NCBI GenBank assembly: GCA_026392035.1
Contig: JAPLCX010000042.1
Coordinates: 1-51,825, forward strand
Origin: Candidatus Auribacterota bacterium
Lineage (GTDB): Bacteria; Auribacterota; Tritonobacteria; UBA1439
DNA: 51,825 nucleotides
Direction: 5' to 3'
Positions 12,384 to 29,414 of the stretch are shown piece after piece; position 1 is the first letter of the stretch, and every line of letters starts with the position of its first letter. Made by a program: the position numbers and the translations under genes. The notes under the pieces are model-generated. The model was not told where the DNA came from. It did no database searches and saw nothing but the letters and a program-made list of their open reading frames with translations.

Positions 12384-13703
12384 ATGAGAAAAACAGAGAA
12401 AGAGGTGGCACTGGCCCTGGTGGAACGCCTGAAGCGGCAGGGCTTCGACGCGTACTTCGTGGGGGGGTGCGTCCGCGATATGCTCATGGGGAAGGAGCCG
12501 CTCGACCACGACATCGCCACGAGCGCCCGCCCCGCGGAGATCGCCGGGATGTTTGCCCACGTGGTGCCCGTCGGGGAACAGTTCGGCGTCATGCTGGTGC
12601 TCGAAGAGGGGCACGGTTTCCAGGTGGCGACCTTCCGCGCGGATCTGGAGTACCGCGACGGCCGCAAGCCGTCAGGGGTGCGGTTCTCTTCTGCCCGCGA
12701 GGACGTCCTCAGGCGTGATTTCACCGTGAACGGCCTCCTGTATGACCCGCTGGAGGAGCGCCTGCTGGACTACGTCGGCGGCGAAAAGGATATCCGTGAG
12801 AAAGTGATCCGCACCATCGGGGATCCACTGGAGCGCTTCACTGAGGACAAGCTCCGGCTGCTGAGGGCCATGCGATTTTCATCGACGCTCGGCTTCGAGA
12901 TAGAAGAAAAGACCTTTGCAGCGATCAGGGAGCTCGTCCATGAGATCACGGTGGTGAGCCAGGAGCGCATCAGGGACGAGCTGGTGAAAATGATGATCGG
13001 GCCGCGCGCGGGCGAGGGCATCGGGCTCCTCGACCGGGCGGGTCTGCTCCAGGTCCTCCTCCCCGAGGTGCACGCCATGAAGGGGGTCCCGCAGCCGGAG
13101 GGGTTTCATCCCGAGGGGGACGTCTTCGCGCACACGAGGAAGATGCTCGACGCGATGGCCGAACCGTCAGTGGTGCTCGCGTTCTCGGTGCTCCTCCACG
13201 ATGCCGGCAAACCGCCCACCTTCTCCGTCAGCGACCGCATCCACTTCATGAGGCATCAGACGGTGGGGGCGGAGATTGCGGGAAAGGTGTGCGGCCGGCT
13301 CCGGTTCCCCAACCATGTGCGGGACAGAATCGTGGCCTGTGTGGAGAACCACATGGTGTTCATGGACATCAGGAGGATGAGGGAGAGCACGGTCAAGCGC
13401 CTGGTGAGCAGGCCGACGTTCCTGGACGAGCTCGAGCTGCACCGCCTGGACTGCCTCGCGAGCGACCGCGACCTCTCCGCCTGGGAACTCCTGAAGCGGA
13501 AGCTCGACGAGTACGGCCGGGAGGTGCGTGAACCGGCCCCGCTCCTGAGCGGCCGCGACCTGCTCACGCTCGGCTATGCCGAGGGGCCGGTCATCGGGAG
13601 AATCCTCCGGCAAATAGAGGAGCTGAACCTCGAGGGCGTGCTCAAAACGAGAGACGACGCACTCAACTGGGTGGAGGAGCACTACAAAGGGGTCAAGTCT
13701 TGA
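12384..13703 (+). CDS. cca: CCA-adding tRNA nucleotidyltransferase with HD domain
   Basis: The 439-residue protein is a class II tRNA nucleotidyltransferase/poly(A) polymerase family member. The N-terminal palm carries YFVGGCVRDMLMG and PLDHDIATSA with the paired acidic metal ligands, then RRDFTVNGLLYDP. A neck and body with EDKLRLLRAMRFSSTLGF follows. A C-terminal HD phosphohydrolase domain has LLHDAGKP and repeated His/Asp motifs, seen in many bacterial members with 2',3'-cyclic phosphodiesterase activity. Length and order match the family. The final GVKS and stop codon are encoded by the left inverted repeat of the neighbouring transposase element (13687-13708), so the native C-terminus may have been altered. 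Confidence 0.87.
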   Translation: MRKTEKEVALALVERLKRQGFDAYFVGGCVRDMLMGKEPLDHDIATSARPAEIAGMFAHVVPVGEQFGVMLVLEEGHGFQVATFRADLEYRDGRKPSGVRFSSAREDVLRRDFTVNGLLYDPLEERLLDYVGGEKDIREKVIRTIGDPLERFTEDKLRLLRAMRFSSTLGFEIEEKTFAAIRELVHEITVVSQERIRDELVKMMIGPRAGEGIGLLDRAGLLQVLLPEVHAMKGVPQPEGFHPEGDVFAHTRKMLDAMAEPSVVLAFSVLLHDAGKPPTFSVSDRIHFMRHQTVGAEIAGKVCGRLRFPNHVRDRIVACVENHMVFMDIRRMRESTVKRLVSRPTFLDELELHRLDCLASDRDLSAWELLKRKLDEYGREVREPAPLLSGRDLLTLGYAEGPVIGRILRQIEELNLEGVLKTRDDALNWVEEHYKGVKS

Positions 13704-14750
13704 TTTTCTACTATTCAGAAAATGCGAGCTCACGGACTTGTGAAATATGAGCAGGCCGCTACGGATAGAATTTCCAGGCGCATGGTACCATGTCATGAAT
13801 AAAGGAGCTGCGGGGCGCGTCATATTTTCCGATGACGGCGGGAAGCGGGCATTTCTCAAGCTGCTTGGAGAAGCGGTGCAGATATGGAATATCAGAATCC
13901 ACTCATATAGCCTGCGTGACACGCACTATCATTTATTGACGGAGACGCCCGAGGGAAATCTGTCTCGGGCGATGCGCCACATTGACGGGGTATACACGCA
14001 GAGATTTAACAGGGCACATCACCGCGATGGAGCTTTGTTTCGCGGACGATATAAGGCAATTCTCATTGAGGAAGAAAGCTACTTGATGGAGATTGCGCGC
14101 TATATACATAATCAGAGCGTAAAATCCGGTGAGTTGACCGATCCAGCCGATGACAGATGGACAAGTCACCGCGCGTACGTGCGGGAGGAGGATCGGCCTT
14201 TATGTTTGACGACTGATCTTATCCTCTCCAGATTTTCCAGGAATATAGGAGCGGCAAAACGTGCGTTCGACAGATATGTCAAACAGGGAGTCCCTCAAAA
14301 AATTGAGGAGCAGTTGAGCGGAAAACGTTGGCCGAGCATGCTTGGCAGCCAGAAATTCAAAAATTGGGTACTCGAGAATTGGATAGATAAGGATAGTTTT
14401 GATTCAGAAATAAGTAGAGTAAAAGTGGAAAAGAGGGTGCATACGATGGATGATATTGTGGACGTCGTGTGCAGCTTATGCAGTTGCCCAAGAGATGCGC
14501 TCTTGTCGGGCCGAGTGGGACGAGGTCATATCGGAAGGAAGGTTGCGATGTATCTATGCAGGTCCGAACTTGGATACACGCATAAGGAAATAGGACAAAT
14601 GTTCTACGGGTTGGGATATGCGGCTGTGGCTAAGATATATAGAGAGATTGCGGATCGGATTGAGGGCGGAGAAGATATTGACCTTATATATCGCGCAAAG
14701 AGAGAACTAAAAAGCCTGCTAAAAAGTTGAAATTCAAGACTTGACCCCTT
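13687..14750. mobile_element. RAYT-type element bounded by inverted repeats
   Basis: Two 22-base inverted repeats, 13687-13708 and 14729-14750, match at 21 of 22 positions (core GGGGTCAAGTCTTGA). They enclose a single transposase gene. The left repeat holds the stop codon of cca and the right repeat holds the stop codons of the transposase itself and of the convergent DUF72 gene. The enclosed DNA is AT-richer than its neighbours. No target-site duplication is visible. Confidence 0.75.
13747..14730 (+). CDS. REP-associated (RAYT/IS200-like) transposase
   Basis: The 327-residue protein belongs to the Y1 HUH transposase family. The N-terminal domain has RPLRIEFPGAWYHVMNKG, the HUH motif within RDTHYHLLTETPEGNL, an FRGRYKAILIE segment, and the likely nucleophile Tyr in ARYIHNQSV, all standard for the RAYT (TnpA_REP) branch. 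The C-terminal third resembles the DnaA C-terminal helix-turn-helix (SELGYTHKEIGQMFYG). Such enzymes mobilise short palindromic repeats, and here the gene is flanked by matching inverted repeats. Codon use is AT-richer than the flanking genes, a sign of transfer. A Shine-Dalgarno sequence is not evident, so translation may be weak. Confidence 0.88.
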   Translation: MSRPLRIEFPGAWYHVMNKGAAGRVIFSDDGGKRAFLKLLGEAVQIWNIRIHSYSLRDTHYHLLTETPEGNLSRAMRHIDGVYTQRFNRAHHRDGALFRGRYKAILIEEESYLMEIARYIHNQSVKSGELTDPADDRWTSHRAYVREEDRPLCLTTDLILSRFSRNIGAAKRAFDRYVKQGVPQKIEEQLSGKRWPSMLGSQKFKNWVLENWIDKDSFDSEISRVKVEKRVHTMDDIVDVVCSLCSCPRDALLSGRVGRGHIGRKVAMYLCRSELGYTHKEIGQMFYGLGYAAVAKIYREIADRIEGGEDIDLIYRAKRELKSLLKS

Positions 14751-15480: not shown

Positions 15481-15880
15481 TTACATATTCCAGCCGTTGA
15501 TGGTGCGTCTATTGTATCGCTTCAGCCCTGTTTCGACAATGCGTGCTATGATTCTCTCATGTACACAGGGAGCCCCATAGCGGCTCAACTATGGGACACA
15601 GACGAAATAGGGCTAAGAATAATTTTCACCACGGAGGCACGGAGTGCACAGAGTGGAGTACATACTTCAGTGTACTCAATGACTTCAGTGGTAAAAACAC
15701 TTAACCACTGAAGACACTGAACCCACTGAAAATCCACGAGGTTTCTCCGTGCTCTCCGTGTCTCCGTGGTGAATACTACGCGGTATTCTCGGCACGACTG
15801 AGGGATTACTGCATGGCATGTTTTGCGCTTGCAATATGCCTCCATTGATGATACATAGCATGTACATTCAGAGGGAAATC
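15481..15880. repeat. Intergenic region with inverted CCACGGAGGCACGGAG repeats
   Basis: This 400-base gap has no gene. It holds a forward copy of TTCACCACGGAGGCACGGAG (15625-15644) and an inverted, longer copy at 15742-15773, enclosing a hairpin (GAGTACA at 15656-15662, TGTACTC at 15671-15677) and several CCACTGA units. Related copies occur at 16998-17025, 21131-21161, 21268-21288 and near 29385-29414. A +strand TGCTATGAT at 15544-15552 is a weak candidate promoter. Confidence 0.7.
15511..15539 (-). promoter_or_regulatory. Promoter of the DUF72 gene
   Basis: On the minus strand TTGTCG (15534-15539) and TACAAT (15511-15516) are 17 bases apart. The -10 ends 30 bases before the ATG at 15480. 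Confidence 0.45.
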
Positions 15881-16984
15881 ATGGACGACATAATGACGAG
15901 AATGAAACGCCACGAAAAGTTCAGCGATTTTTTCGTCCCCATTGACGAGCAGACCGAATTCAGGGATGCCACGTATTTTTTGCGCGGCGATGCGGCGTTC
16001 ATTTTTTCAGAGGGGTACTGTCATGCCCCCGACCGGCCGCTCAAGGAGCGGCGGGTGGTTTCGCACATCGTCTTTGTCCCGCAGAGGGGCGAGGTGCCAG
16101 CGTACACAAAGAAGAAACTCTTCGGCCAGGAGTACGAAAATATCACCAAGGGCATTATGAACACGCAGCCGCTCCACATGTTCTATCCGTTGCAATTGAA
16201 GAGGTATCTGGAGATTGATCCCTCCCTCGATGTGGAGAAGCCCGCGTACGCGCGCTACAAGGCCCTGATACCAGTGGACTCCCTTCTCGGCTACTTCCCG
16301 CACCGCAATTCCCTCCAGGCCATATTCGCCCGCGCCGGGGGAGATGACAGCGCCCGGCGCATCAAGGGAGCGATTGAGGCCTCCGCCGGTCTCCTGGGAA
16401 TATCCCCGGAACAGTTCGGCATATCGGGATCGTTGTCGCTCGGCACATACGAGAATCCACACGACCTCGACGTGGTCATCTATGCGAGCGTCAAGGAGGT
16501 GAGGCGCATCGTGGACTTTCTCTACAGGCTCACCGCCACAGACGAGAAGAGGAAGGTATTCGAGTTCGGCAAATACTGGCCGATCCGTTACTGGGAGTGG
16601 GTGGGCGGGGACAAACTCATGTTCTGCCCGTTTTTCTCATACATTGATCTCGATGAGTGCCCCTTGCGTGATTTTACCTGCGAGGAGATCGGCGGAGTGA
16701 CGCTCGAGGGGCGCGTGGCGGATCACACGCACAACGCATACAACCCGACCGTACTGGGCCTCGAGAAAGTCGCACTGGATGGCAAAAACCGTTCCGGCCA
16801 GCTCAGGCTGATTCTCTACCACGGAGGGGAGAGGGGCGATTACGTGGAGGGCGACCGGATTGCCGGCAAGGGGACGCATGTCCTCATACGAACGTTCAAG
16901 GGGACGGGCGCCGCGCGGCGGCAGTCGGATGAGTACGAAGCGGTACTCACGACGAACATCGGCGATGTGCACAAGGCAGAGTAA
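15881..16984 (+). CDS. Unrecognised protein with nucleotidyltransferase-like motif (paralog 1)
   Basis: The 367-residue product belongs to no family I recognise. Residues 183-200 read GSLSLGTYENPHDLDVVI, which fits the GS-x(9-13)-[DE]h[DE]h signature of the polymerase-beta-like nucleotidyltransferase fold, with Asp195 and Asp197 as candidate metal ligands. A conserved CPFFSYIDLDE segment downstream might carry the third acidic residue. The N-terminus has an IR/FRDAxxFLRxD-SEGYCH block, and the C-terminus an ILYHGGERGDYVEGD block; all three recur in the next gene. The start at 15881 is preceded by GAGGG. No helicase, toxin or antitoxin partner is evident. Confidence 0.6.
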   Translation: MDDIMTRMKRHEKFSDFFVPIDEQTEFRDATYFLRGDAAFIFSEGYCHAPDRPLKERRVVSHIVFVPQRGEVPAYTKKKLFGQEYENITKGIMNTQPLHMFYPLQLKRYLEIDPSLDVEKPAYARYKALIPVDSLLGYFPHRNSLQAIFARAGGDDSARRIKGAIEASAGLLGISPEQFGISGSLSLGTYENPHDLDVVIYASVKEVRRIVDFLYRLTATDEKRKVFEFGKYWPIRYWEWVGGDKLMFCPFFSYIDLDECPLRDFTCEEIGGVTLEGRVADHTHNAYNPTVLGLEKVALDGKNRSGQLRLILYHGGERGDYVEGDRIAGKGTHVLIRTFKGTGAARRQSDEYEAVLTTNIGDVHKAE

Positions 16985-16997
16985 TATTGTTAAGTTT

Positions 16998-17025
16998 TTA
17001 CCACGGAGGCACGGAGGACACGGAG
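16998..17025 (+). repeat. CCACGGAGGCACGGAG repeat between the two paralogs
   Basis: One forward copy of the family that also appears at 15625-15773, 21131-21288 and 29385-29414. It begins just after the stop codon of the first paralog. Confidence 0.7.
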
Positions 17026-17146
17026 CAAAGAGATGCATAAGAAAAATATGTTTTTCCAAAGAGGGGAAAAGGCTCTTTCCCACTTTGTGTAAACCACCGT
17101 TAATCCTAGATTCGTGGTCAGAAGCATAACGTAAAAAGAAAACAAT

Positions 17147-18187
17147 ATGATCTACGGAAAAGACAACAGGGAACTGATGGATGCGGTCAGGCGCCACCCC
17201 GATTTCAGGGACTTCGTCGTCCCCATCTCGACACTCAACGAGATCAGGGATGCGAACTTCTTCCTGCGCCGCGACGGCCTCCTTGCGTTCTCAGAGGGAT
17301 ACTGCCATCCCCCCGGCAAACTCATCGGGAATATCATCTATATACCCAGCCCGATGGGGACAAAAAGATTTTTCGGGGTCCCGTACGCGAGCATCATCAA
17401 GCACTATGGCGGAGAAGAGGAGAAGTGGGTCACCTTCAAGGAGCAATTGAAGATTTACCGCGAGATCGATCCCTCGACTCAGACGGGGAAACCGATATTC
17501 GCTGAGAACAAGTGCGTTTTTAACCTCGATGATTTTCTTGGTTACATCCCGCCGCTCCGCTCGCTCGAGATCGTGCGCAGCCGCATGCCGCAGATTGATG
17601 CGACAATCAGAGAAATCGGCGCCCTCCTCGGCATCGACCATGGGAAGATCGGCTGCACGGGCTCGATGTCGTTCGGGAACATCGGGGAGGCACACGACTT
17701 CGATCTCGTCTTCTACGGGGAGGTCGGCTTACTACGGGAGGTTCTCTCGGCGATCTACGAGATCGTCAAGGATCCCGCGAGGCAGGTATTCGAACTGGGG
17801 ATGCTCTGGGCGATCCGATTCTATGACACCGCGGGGAACATGATCTGCCCCTTCTTCTCGTATGACGATCCGTCGGAGATCCCGCTCCCGAAATTCGAGA
17901 TGGAGCTGCACGCAGGCGACATCGAGGCTACCATGACCATCGGCAATGACGACCACACGGGGTTCATGCCGTCTTTTCTCCCCCTCTCTGGAGCGAGTGC
18001 GGGAGGGGAGAGCCTGGGGGAGAATTCCGTGCTCATTATCTACCACGGGGGGAAGAGGGGAGAATACCGCAAGGGCGACCACGTCAGAGCGAGGGGCCAT
18101 CGCGTCCGGGTGAGTACGGCGCGAAGGGAGTTTGACGCCATCCTCGTCACCGACATGGGCAATACGGAGAAGCTGGTTAAGTGTTGA
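17147..18187 (+). CDS. Unrecognised protein with nucleotidyltransferase-like motif (paralog 2)
   Basis: This 346-residue protein is clearly related to its upstream neighbour over the full length. Shared blocks include VVPISTLNEIRDANFFLRRD with SEGYCHPP, LGYIPPLRSLE, the motif GSMSFGNIGEAHDFDLVF (172-189, Asp184 and Asp186), ICPFFSYDD, and IIYHGGKRGEYRKGD. Sequence has diverged well beyond a recent duplication, so the pair has probably been maintained together. The final VKC and stop codon fall within a GTTGAGGG-type repeat. No Shine-Dalgarno is obvious before the ATG. Function is unknown; nucleotide transfer to RNA, protein or a small molecule is possible from the fold alone. Confidence 0.6.
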   Translation: MIYGKDNRELMDAVRRHPDFRDFVVPISTLNEIRDANFFLRRDGLLAFSEGYCHPPGKLIGNIIYIPSPMGTKRFFGVPYASIIKHYGGEEEKWVTFKEQLKIYREIDPSTQTGKPIFAENKCVFNLDDFLGYIPPLRSLEIVRSRMPQIDATIREIGALLGIDHGKIGCTGSMSFGNIGEAHDFDLVFYGEVGLLREVLSAIYEIVKDPARQVFELGMLWAIRFYDTAGNMICPFFSYDDPSEIPLPKFEMELHAGDIEATMTIGNDDHTGFMPSFLPLSGASAGGESLGENSVLIIYHGGKRGEYRKGDHVRARGHRVRVSTARREFDAILVTDMGNTEKLVKC

Positions 18188-21130: not shown

Positions 21131-21288
21131 TTCACCACGGAGACACGGAGGGCACGGAGAAAAACAACAAGGTAGTAACCGCGGATTAGGCGGATTGCGC
21201 GGATTTTCTTCGCATTGATCTTTGAACCTTAAACTTTACACTTTCACCTGTAACAGCGCTCCGCGACCTCCGTGTCTCCGTGGTGGAA
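21131..21288. repeat. Composite three-module intergenic repeat, copy A
   Basis: CCACGGAGACACGGAG begins the unit (21131-21161). Next come an AACCGCGGATTAGGCGGATT module (21178 onward) and a CTTTAAACTTTACACTTTC-like module, and an inverted CTCCGTGTCTCCGTGGTG copy closes it (21268-21288). The same module order, reversed, recurs at 29270-29414. It separates the HydB- and HydG-like genes. Confidence 0.65.
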
Positions 21289-29269: not shown

Positions 29270-29414
29270 ACCACTGAGGGCACTACTGCAGACGAAAGTG
29301 TAAAGTTAAAGGTGTAAAGATCAATGTGGAGAAAATCCGCCTCATCCGCTCAATTCGCGGTTAATCTCTTAAGAATATTCTCTGCGGCCTCCATGTCCTC
29401 CGTGGTTTGGTTTG
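29270..29414. repeat. Composite three-module intergenic repeat, copy B (reversed)
   Basis: Read on the minus strand, this unit has CCACGGAGG, then TTAACCGCGAATTGAGCGG and TTTACACCTTTAACTTTACACTTTC, in the same order as copy A at 21131-21288. It ends near CTCAGTGGTTCAC. It fills the hemC-ahbC divergent region. Confidence 0.6.

Follow-up and report, generated by a model that had tools for sequence, protein, structure and literature searches.

An old set of about nine paralogous proteins with a likely nucleotidyltransferase core in one clade of the Auribacterota

Two adjacent genes of a Candidatus Auribacterota bacterium (assembly GCA_026392035.1, contig JAPLCX010000042.1) raise the question of what kind of protein they encode and on what such proteins would act. 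The window, i.e. the whole stretch of DNA analysed, comprises 51,825 nucleotides. The initial annotation had described the genes as an adjacent, diverged pair, and this is what they are: both open reading frames are intact, and their products are homologous end to end with 35% identity (BLASTP, E 3e-70). For ORF 1, the ATG at 15881 is the preferred start, as AGAGGG is located immediately 5' of it; an alternative in-frame ATG is present at 15818. The ORF 1 protein is composed of a small N-terminal beta domain, a putative nucleotidyltransferase (NTase) core containing GSLSLG...HDLD, and a C-terminal OB-like domain containing YHGGERGDYVEGD. The features of the two genes are as follows.

15881-16984, plus strand: ORF 1, family member of group 1 (OG1), 367 aa, start ATG at 15881, stop at 16984
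16463-16465 and 16469-16471, plus strand: Asp codons of GSLSLG...HDLD in ORF 1
17147-18187, plus strand: ORF 2, family member of group 2 (OG2), 346 aa, architecture as in ORF 1
17246-17311, plus strand: ORF 2 N-terminal block RDANFFLRRDGLLAFSEGYCHP, residues 34-55, from residue conservation
17522-17902, plus strand: putative NTase core in ORF 2, residues 126-252, from the core model and Foldseek
17696-17704, plus strand: D184-x-D186 of ORF 2 on beta2, presumed metal-binding pair, kept in 96 of 97 members
17846-17848, plus strand: codon of the invariant C234 of ORF 2 on beta5, from conservation, core model and alignment
17897-18184, plus strand: OB-like domain at the C-terminus of ORF 2, about residues 251-346, with YHGGKRGEYRKGD, from AlphaFold2 and Foldseek

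Three sequence blocks had been proposed to be common to both proteins. All three are present in both, although the 'IRDA' given for the first one is FRDA in ORF 1. The N-terminal block reads FRDATYFLRGD..FSEGYCH in ORF 1 and IRDANFFLRRD..FSEGYCH in ORF 2, the middle block GSLSLGTYENPHDLDVVIY and GSMSFGNIGEAHDFDLVFY, respectively, and the C-terminal block YHGGERGDYVEGD and YHGGKRGEYRKGD. In an alignment of 97 family members (ORF 2 numbering), D35, G51, Y52, G169, G172, W221, C234, P246, and P275 are invariant, S173, G177, D184, D186, R304, and G305 are retained in 96, and H54 of the N-terminal block in 89. The likeness in the three blocks is thus far beyond chance, and the two aspartates seen at fixed spacing in both genes form a pair that recurs in all members except one.

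Searches of Pfam and NCBIfam assigned neither protein to a named family. The only Pfam trace in ORF 1 is NTP_transf_2 (E 0.16, residues 180-225); for this profile, one window protein scores 12.8 bits and the other none, the Pfam cut-off being 21. Among 35 relatives, 20 match NTP_transf_2 at E <= 1 (best value 1.3e-6), and one member encoded in the same genome (C36) exceeds the cut-off with 29.4 bits. Profile searches of PDB sequences rank NTases first, namely 2rff and MNT, with none of the matches being significant. The statement that no known family has this combination of motifs stands to the extent that no curated Pfam or NCBIfam family covers both genes; to call the family unrecognised was an overstatement, since full-length distant homologues exist outside the phylum. 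One of them (L129; G140, G384), a 373-aa protein of a bacterium outside the phylum, was detected with the family profile at E 6.9e-8, and its relatives are located on 21 Streptomyces plasmids, where they are annotated as hypothetical or nucleotidyltransferase domain-containing proteins (e.g. WP_168723234.1 and WP_331764056.1). When the profile of the Auribacterota proteins was aligned with that of L129 and the Streptomyces proteins (hhalign, 98.2%, E 5.8e-14), all three blocks aligned in the same order, the counterparts being RDxxYLLDRxGVIFKVIGDVHPxTH, GVTGSFLVGxxxxRSDIDLVCYG, and SYxGxxxGxxRxGDxVxxxGxL, at an identity of about 23%. The wider family, which probably corresponds to COG1665, a 'predicted nucleotidyltransferase' known from archaea, has one copy per record among the matches seen, in contrast to about nine per Auribacterota genome. 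Judged from these alignments, the Auribacterota proteins have diverged and expanded as one branch of an uncharacterised three-domain family of sparse distribution.

That the proteins have an NTase-like fold had been proposed from the motif, and the confident structure prediction, together with the NTP_transf_2 matches of the relatives, supports this proposal. The AlphaFold2 model of ORF 2, built from 35 sequences, has a pLDDT of 94.5 and a pTM of 0.92, and the core modelled alone a pLDDT of 93.6. Its secondary structure delimits three parts, namely a small beta domain at about residues 38-82, the core at about 126-252, and a second beta domain at the C-terminus (about 251-346). The elements of the core follow in the order beta1-GS helix-beta2(DxD)-helix-beta3-beta4-beta5, with E216 on beta3 and C234 on beta5. 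In a Foldseek search of the PDB with the core, NTases made up the majority of the best 50 matches, including TM1012, cGAS, ANT(2''), Pol beta, PolX, a CCA-adding enzyme, Cid1, and CdnG, all at E > 0.1 and a probability of at most 0.47. As no NTase match is significant alone, the fold class rests on the agreement of motif, profiles, element order, and fold matches. The pair likely has a DNA-polymerase-beta-type NTase fold, an assignment which is well supported by these lines together, not proven. For the C-terminal domain, the best PDB matches were SSB proteins (probability 0.97, E 0.016), and a search of a viral fold library gave weak SSB-like OB matches only; in the model, the C-terminus thus resembles an OB fold. 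The family shares the GS...DxD core and the Asp pair on beta2 with NTP_transf_2 (PF01909) and the MNT-type minimal NTases (2rff, TM1012), which differ from it in having only about 100-160 aa and neither an OB nor an N-terminal domain. CCA-adding enzymes, TUTases (Cid1), Pol X, and CD-NTases probably belong to the same fold class as the core, judging from the Foldseek matches, but carry other accessory domains and three carboxylates; a separate gene of the CCA type, named by reading only, is present in the window at 12384-13703.

The two genes had been regarded as a pair, which is incomplete as a description of the unit, because the genome from which they come (2.8 Mb, 122 contigs) holds nine family members. 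In a scan of 44 genomes of the phylum, 12 yielded six to ten matches each and the other 32 none. According to the named records, which are metagenome-assembled genomes, the carriers are Candidatus Auribacterota including Tritonobacter lacicola, Erginobacter occultus, and Euphemobacter frigidus. In 384 genomes searched, about 340 of them from the rest of Bacteria, no comparable set was found outside the phylum, and the matches there were weak and, with the exception of L129, confined to the NTase core. A tree of 97 members resolves about nine groups, an approximate count because the deep nodes are weakly supported, and groups 4, 5, and 7/7b were assigned partly from gene order. Most groups have one member per genome (genomes G006 and G013 hold additional members in groups 1 and 3), and each mirrors the relationships of the genomes. 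Mean identity is 57% within groups versus 36% between them, and dN/dS values of 0.08-0.40 in close pairs indicate that every group tested is under purifying selection. Groups 1 and 2, which contain the window pair, form a single clade with a support of 1.0, which points to an old duplication still in tandem. The conserved tandem order whose search had been recommended does exist, OG1 and OG2 being adjacent in 10 genomes; in genome G031, both are located at contig ends. A second array is also retained, in the form OG5-OG4-OG6, OG5-OG6, or OG5-OG6-OG7b. The presumed paired function may fit the old and conserved tandem, but the remaining paralogues occur singly or in threes. A recent expansion or a mobile origin was rejected, since tree and gene order are old and vertical: the family has been inherited vertically.

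The reading that we hold, with moderate confidence, to be the correct one is that these proteins are active metal-dependent NTases, an old set of paralogues which have their chemistry in common and act on acceptors that have diverged and may be RNA. A rival reading would place them among the NTases of toxin-antitoxin and defence systems (MNT/HEPN, AbiE, CD-NTase), MNT-type NTases being usually paired with HEPN partners; MNT was among the closest PDB profile matches, with CdnG and cGAS appearing in the fold search. A role of this kind is already largely refuted and hardly credible for the present family, given that PADLOC returned no match for it, that no HEPN-like or effector partner was seen by reading in the neighbourhoods listed, that no family homologue was found in phages, and that each group is vertically inherited as a single copy per genome.

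In NTases, two acids are located on strand 2 and a third one on strand 5 (PMC11646218). The GxGS...DxD motif, present in 96 of the 97 members, maps to the GS helix and beta2 of the ORF 2 model, and beta5 of ORF 2 (MICPFFSY) is free of acids and contains the Cys 234 common to all members. On the basis of sequence, the third catalytic carboxylate is apparently replaced by this cysteine, and E216 on beta3, retained in 96 of 97 members, might substitute for it. The position aligned to C234 lies in LDF in L129, with an Asp in place of the Auribacterota Cys, and in INC in the Streptomyces proteins, the alignment being uncertain in this region; L129 also has an insertion before beta5. One group 8 member in a single genome (G003:C37:140627-141637; L049:8604-9632, minus strand) has ALN instead of DxD, has also lost the Ser of the GS motif, and sits on a long branch; with both aspartates lost, it is probably an inactive, dead copy. 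The apparent Cys at the third carboxylate position and this member without both aspartates weigh against active enzymes. They would suit catalytically dead NTase scaffolds, for example a single hetero-oligomer assembled from about nine distinct subunits, and a complex of fixed stoichiometry would fit old single-copy paralogues. We give this interpretation very little credence, as 96 of the 97 members, across deep paralogues, have retained an Asp pair and a GS motif for which dead scaffolds would have no need, and as most of the family genes are scattered.

When neighbourhoods were compared, with most neighbour names read from sequence starts, no neighbour gene was retained across the families of the phylum, so that nothing independent names the acceptor; the initial annotation had likewise seen no partner gene suggesting a substrate. 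In the genome under study, the arrays adjoin Lrp/aminotransferase or PCMT genes, and a partnership with the former was rejected because the aminotransferase is retained only in the genome's own family. In Erginobacteria-type genomes, the arrays are located in polysaccharide regions, whereas in the window's own family they lie elsewhere (names by reading). In the Erginobacteria-type genomes, genes for an initiating sugar transferase, NDP-sugar dehydratases, and glycosyltransferases are found around the OG5-OG6-OG7b array, and OG1 is preceded by genes for glycosyltransferases and a flippase. These locations suggest a possible, if rather unlikely, modification of small molecules or surface glycans, in which a sugar, lipid carrier, or cofactor would receive a nucleotide or phospho-group, in the manner of aminoglycoside NTases or LicD-type enzymes. 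LicD-type phosphotransferases are NTase-fold enzymes acting on glycans, and some members of the present family are located beside glycan genes; the present family differs in its standard GS...DxD motif, and no LicD Pfam match was obtained for the window proteins or the 35 relatives scanned. The distant homologues also offer some support for such substrates, one being located among FolB, DUF1464, DUF447, and beta-RFAP-synthase-like genes and the Streptomyces ones adjoining an APH-type phosphotransferase. Against it, glycan neighbours are absent in other families, including that of the window with its Lrp/aminotransferase and PCMT neighbours, and the tetrahydromethanopterin (H4MPT) context of the distant homologue does not carry over to a phylum without MCH.

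The gene run of this distant homologue (L129:3-3545) suggests an H4MPT-type cluster and makes its product a candidate for an as yet unassigned step of tetrahydromethanopterin metabolism. An extension of this link to the Auribacterota was rejected, MCH being absent from all 43 genomes of the phylum searched. On the Streptomyces plasmids (L146:7076-9029, L147:7067-9023, L148:7055-9020), the genes of the APH-type phosphotransferase and the family homologue overlap or are adjacent, and are sometimes followed by a methyltransferase gene.

Regulatory protein nucleotidylation of the GlnD or GlnE type is very unlikely in our view: by inspection, some members (OG8, OG2/OG9, and OG3) have a gene for glutamine synthetase, glutamate dehydrogenase, or a glutamate-synthase-like protein not more than a few kb away, but the distances often amount to several kb, the association is missing in other families, and Pfam scans of the window proteins and 35 relatives detected no HD, ACT, or GlnE-type domain. 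Two further observations concern the surroundings of family genes. A contig with a triple array carries RnfC/PduS-, aldehyde dehydrogenase-, and microcompartment shell-like genes (L027:240-4681, minus strand; named from sequence starts). Just 5' of the gene pair in the window, a RAYT-like transposase gene is located (13747-14730, plus strand), with Y1_Tnp and a DnaA-C-like domain slightly under the Pfam cut-off, and intergenic CTCCGTG-NN-CTCCGTG repeats are present before and between the two genes, the window as a whole containing six of them versus 0.55 expected (15638-15653, 15745-15760, 17010-17025, 21144-21159, 21259-21274, and 29389-29404); together, these elements likely constitute a REP/RAYT system.

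For the active NTases that we favour, we propose the following scheme. Repeated duplication in the ancestor of one Auribacterota clade (Tritonobacteria, Erginobacteria, and relatives) would have produced the set of about nine paralogues, within it the window pair by a single old tandem duplication, and the descendants would have retained one of each paralogue per genome. The GS helix and D184/D186 would bind an NTP with a divalent metal, and the NMP would be passed to an acceptor that the OB-like domain and the N-terminal domain hold in place. That the proteins are catalytically active, use a metal, and transfer an NMP is what we infer for the family, as is the acceptor. The chemistry would be shared, because the core motifs are identical in all groups, and the acceptors would probably differ by paralogue, because the remainder of the proteins has diverged. 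The likeliest acceptors would be RNA 3' ends or another oligonucleotide, which are favoured because of the OB fold; RNA is a guess guided by this domain, and OB folds bind proteins and sugars, too. A more specific version, in which about nine dedicated OB-fold NTases with a two-Asp-plus-Cys site each tail their own class of RNA, e.g. separate tRNAs or small RNAs, appears improbable to us; if true, it would represent an RNA-tailing or editing system without a described bacterial precedent.

The two genes belong to an old set, fixed in one bacterial clade, of about nine OB-containing proteins of the likely NTase class. About nine diverged and intact copies in genomes of 2-4 Mb point to an important, as yet unnamed process in these uncultured bacteria, and the family may show that NTase chemistry can dispense with the third carboxylate that is usually present. 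With the parent family being uncharacterised, the paralogues provide a natural series, presumably of the same chemistry and with different acceptors, for finding its substrate.
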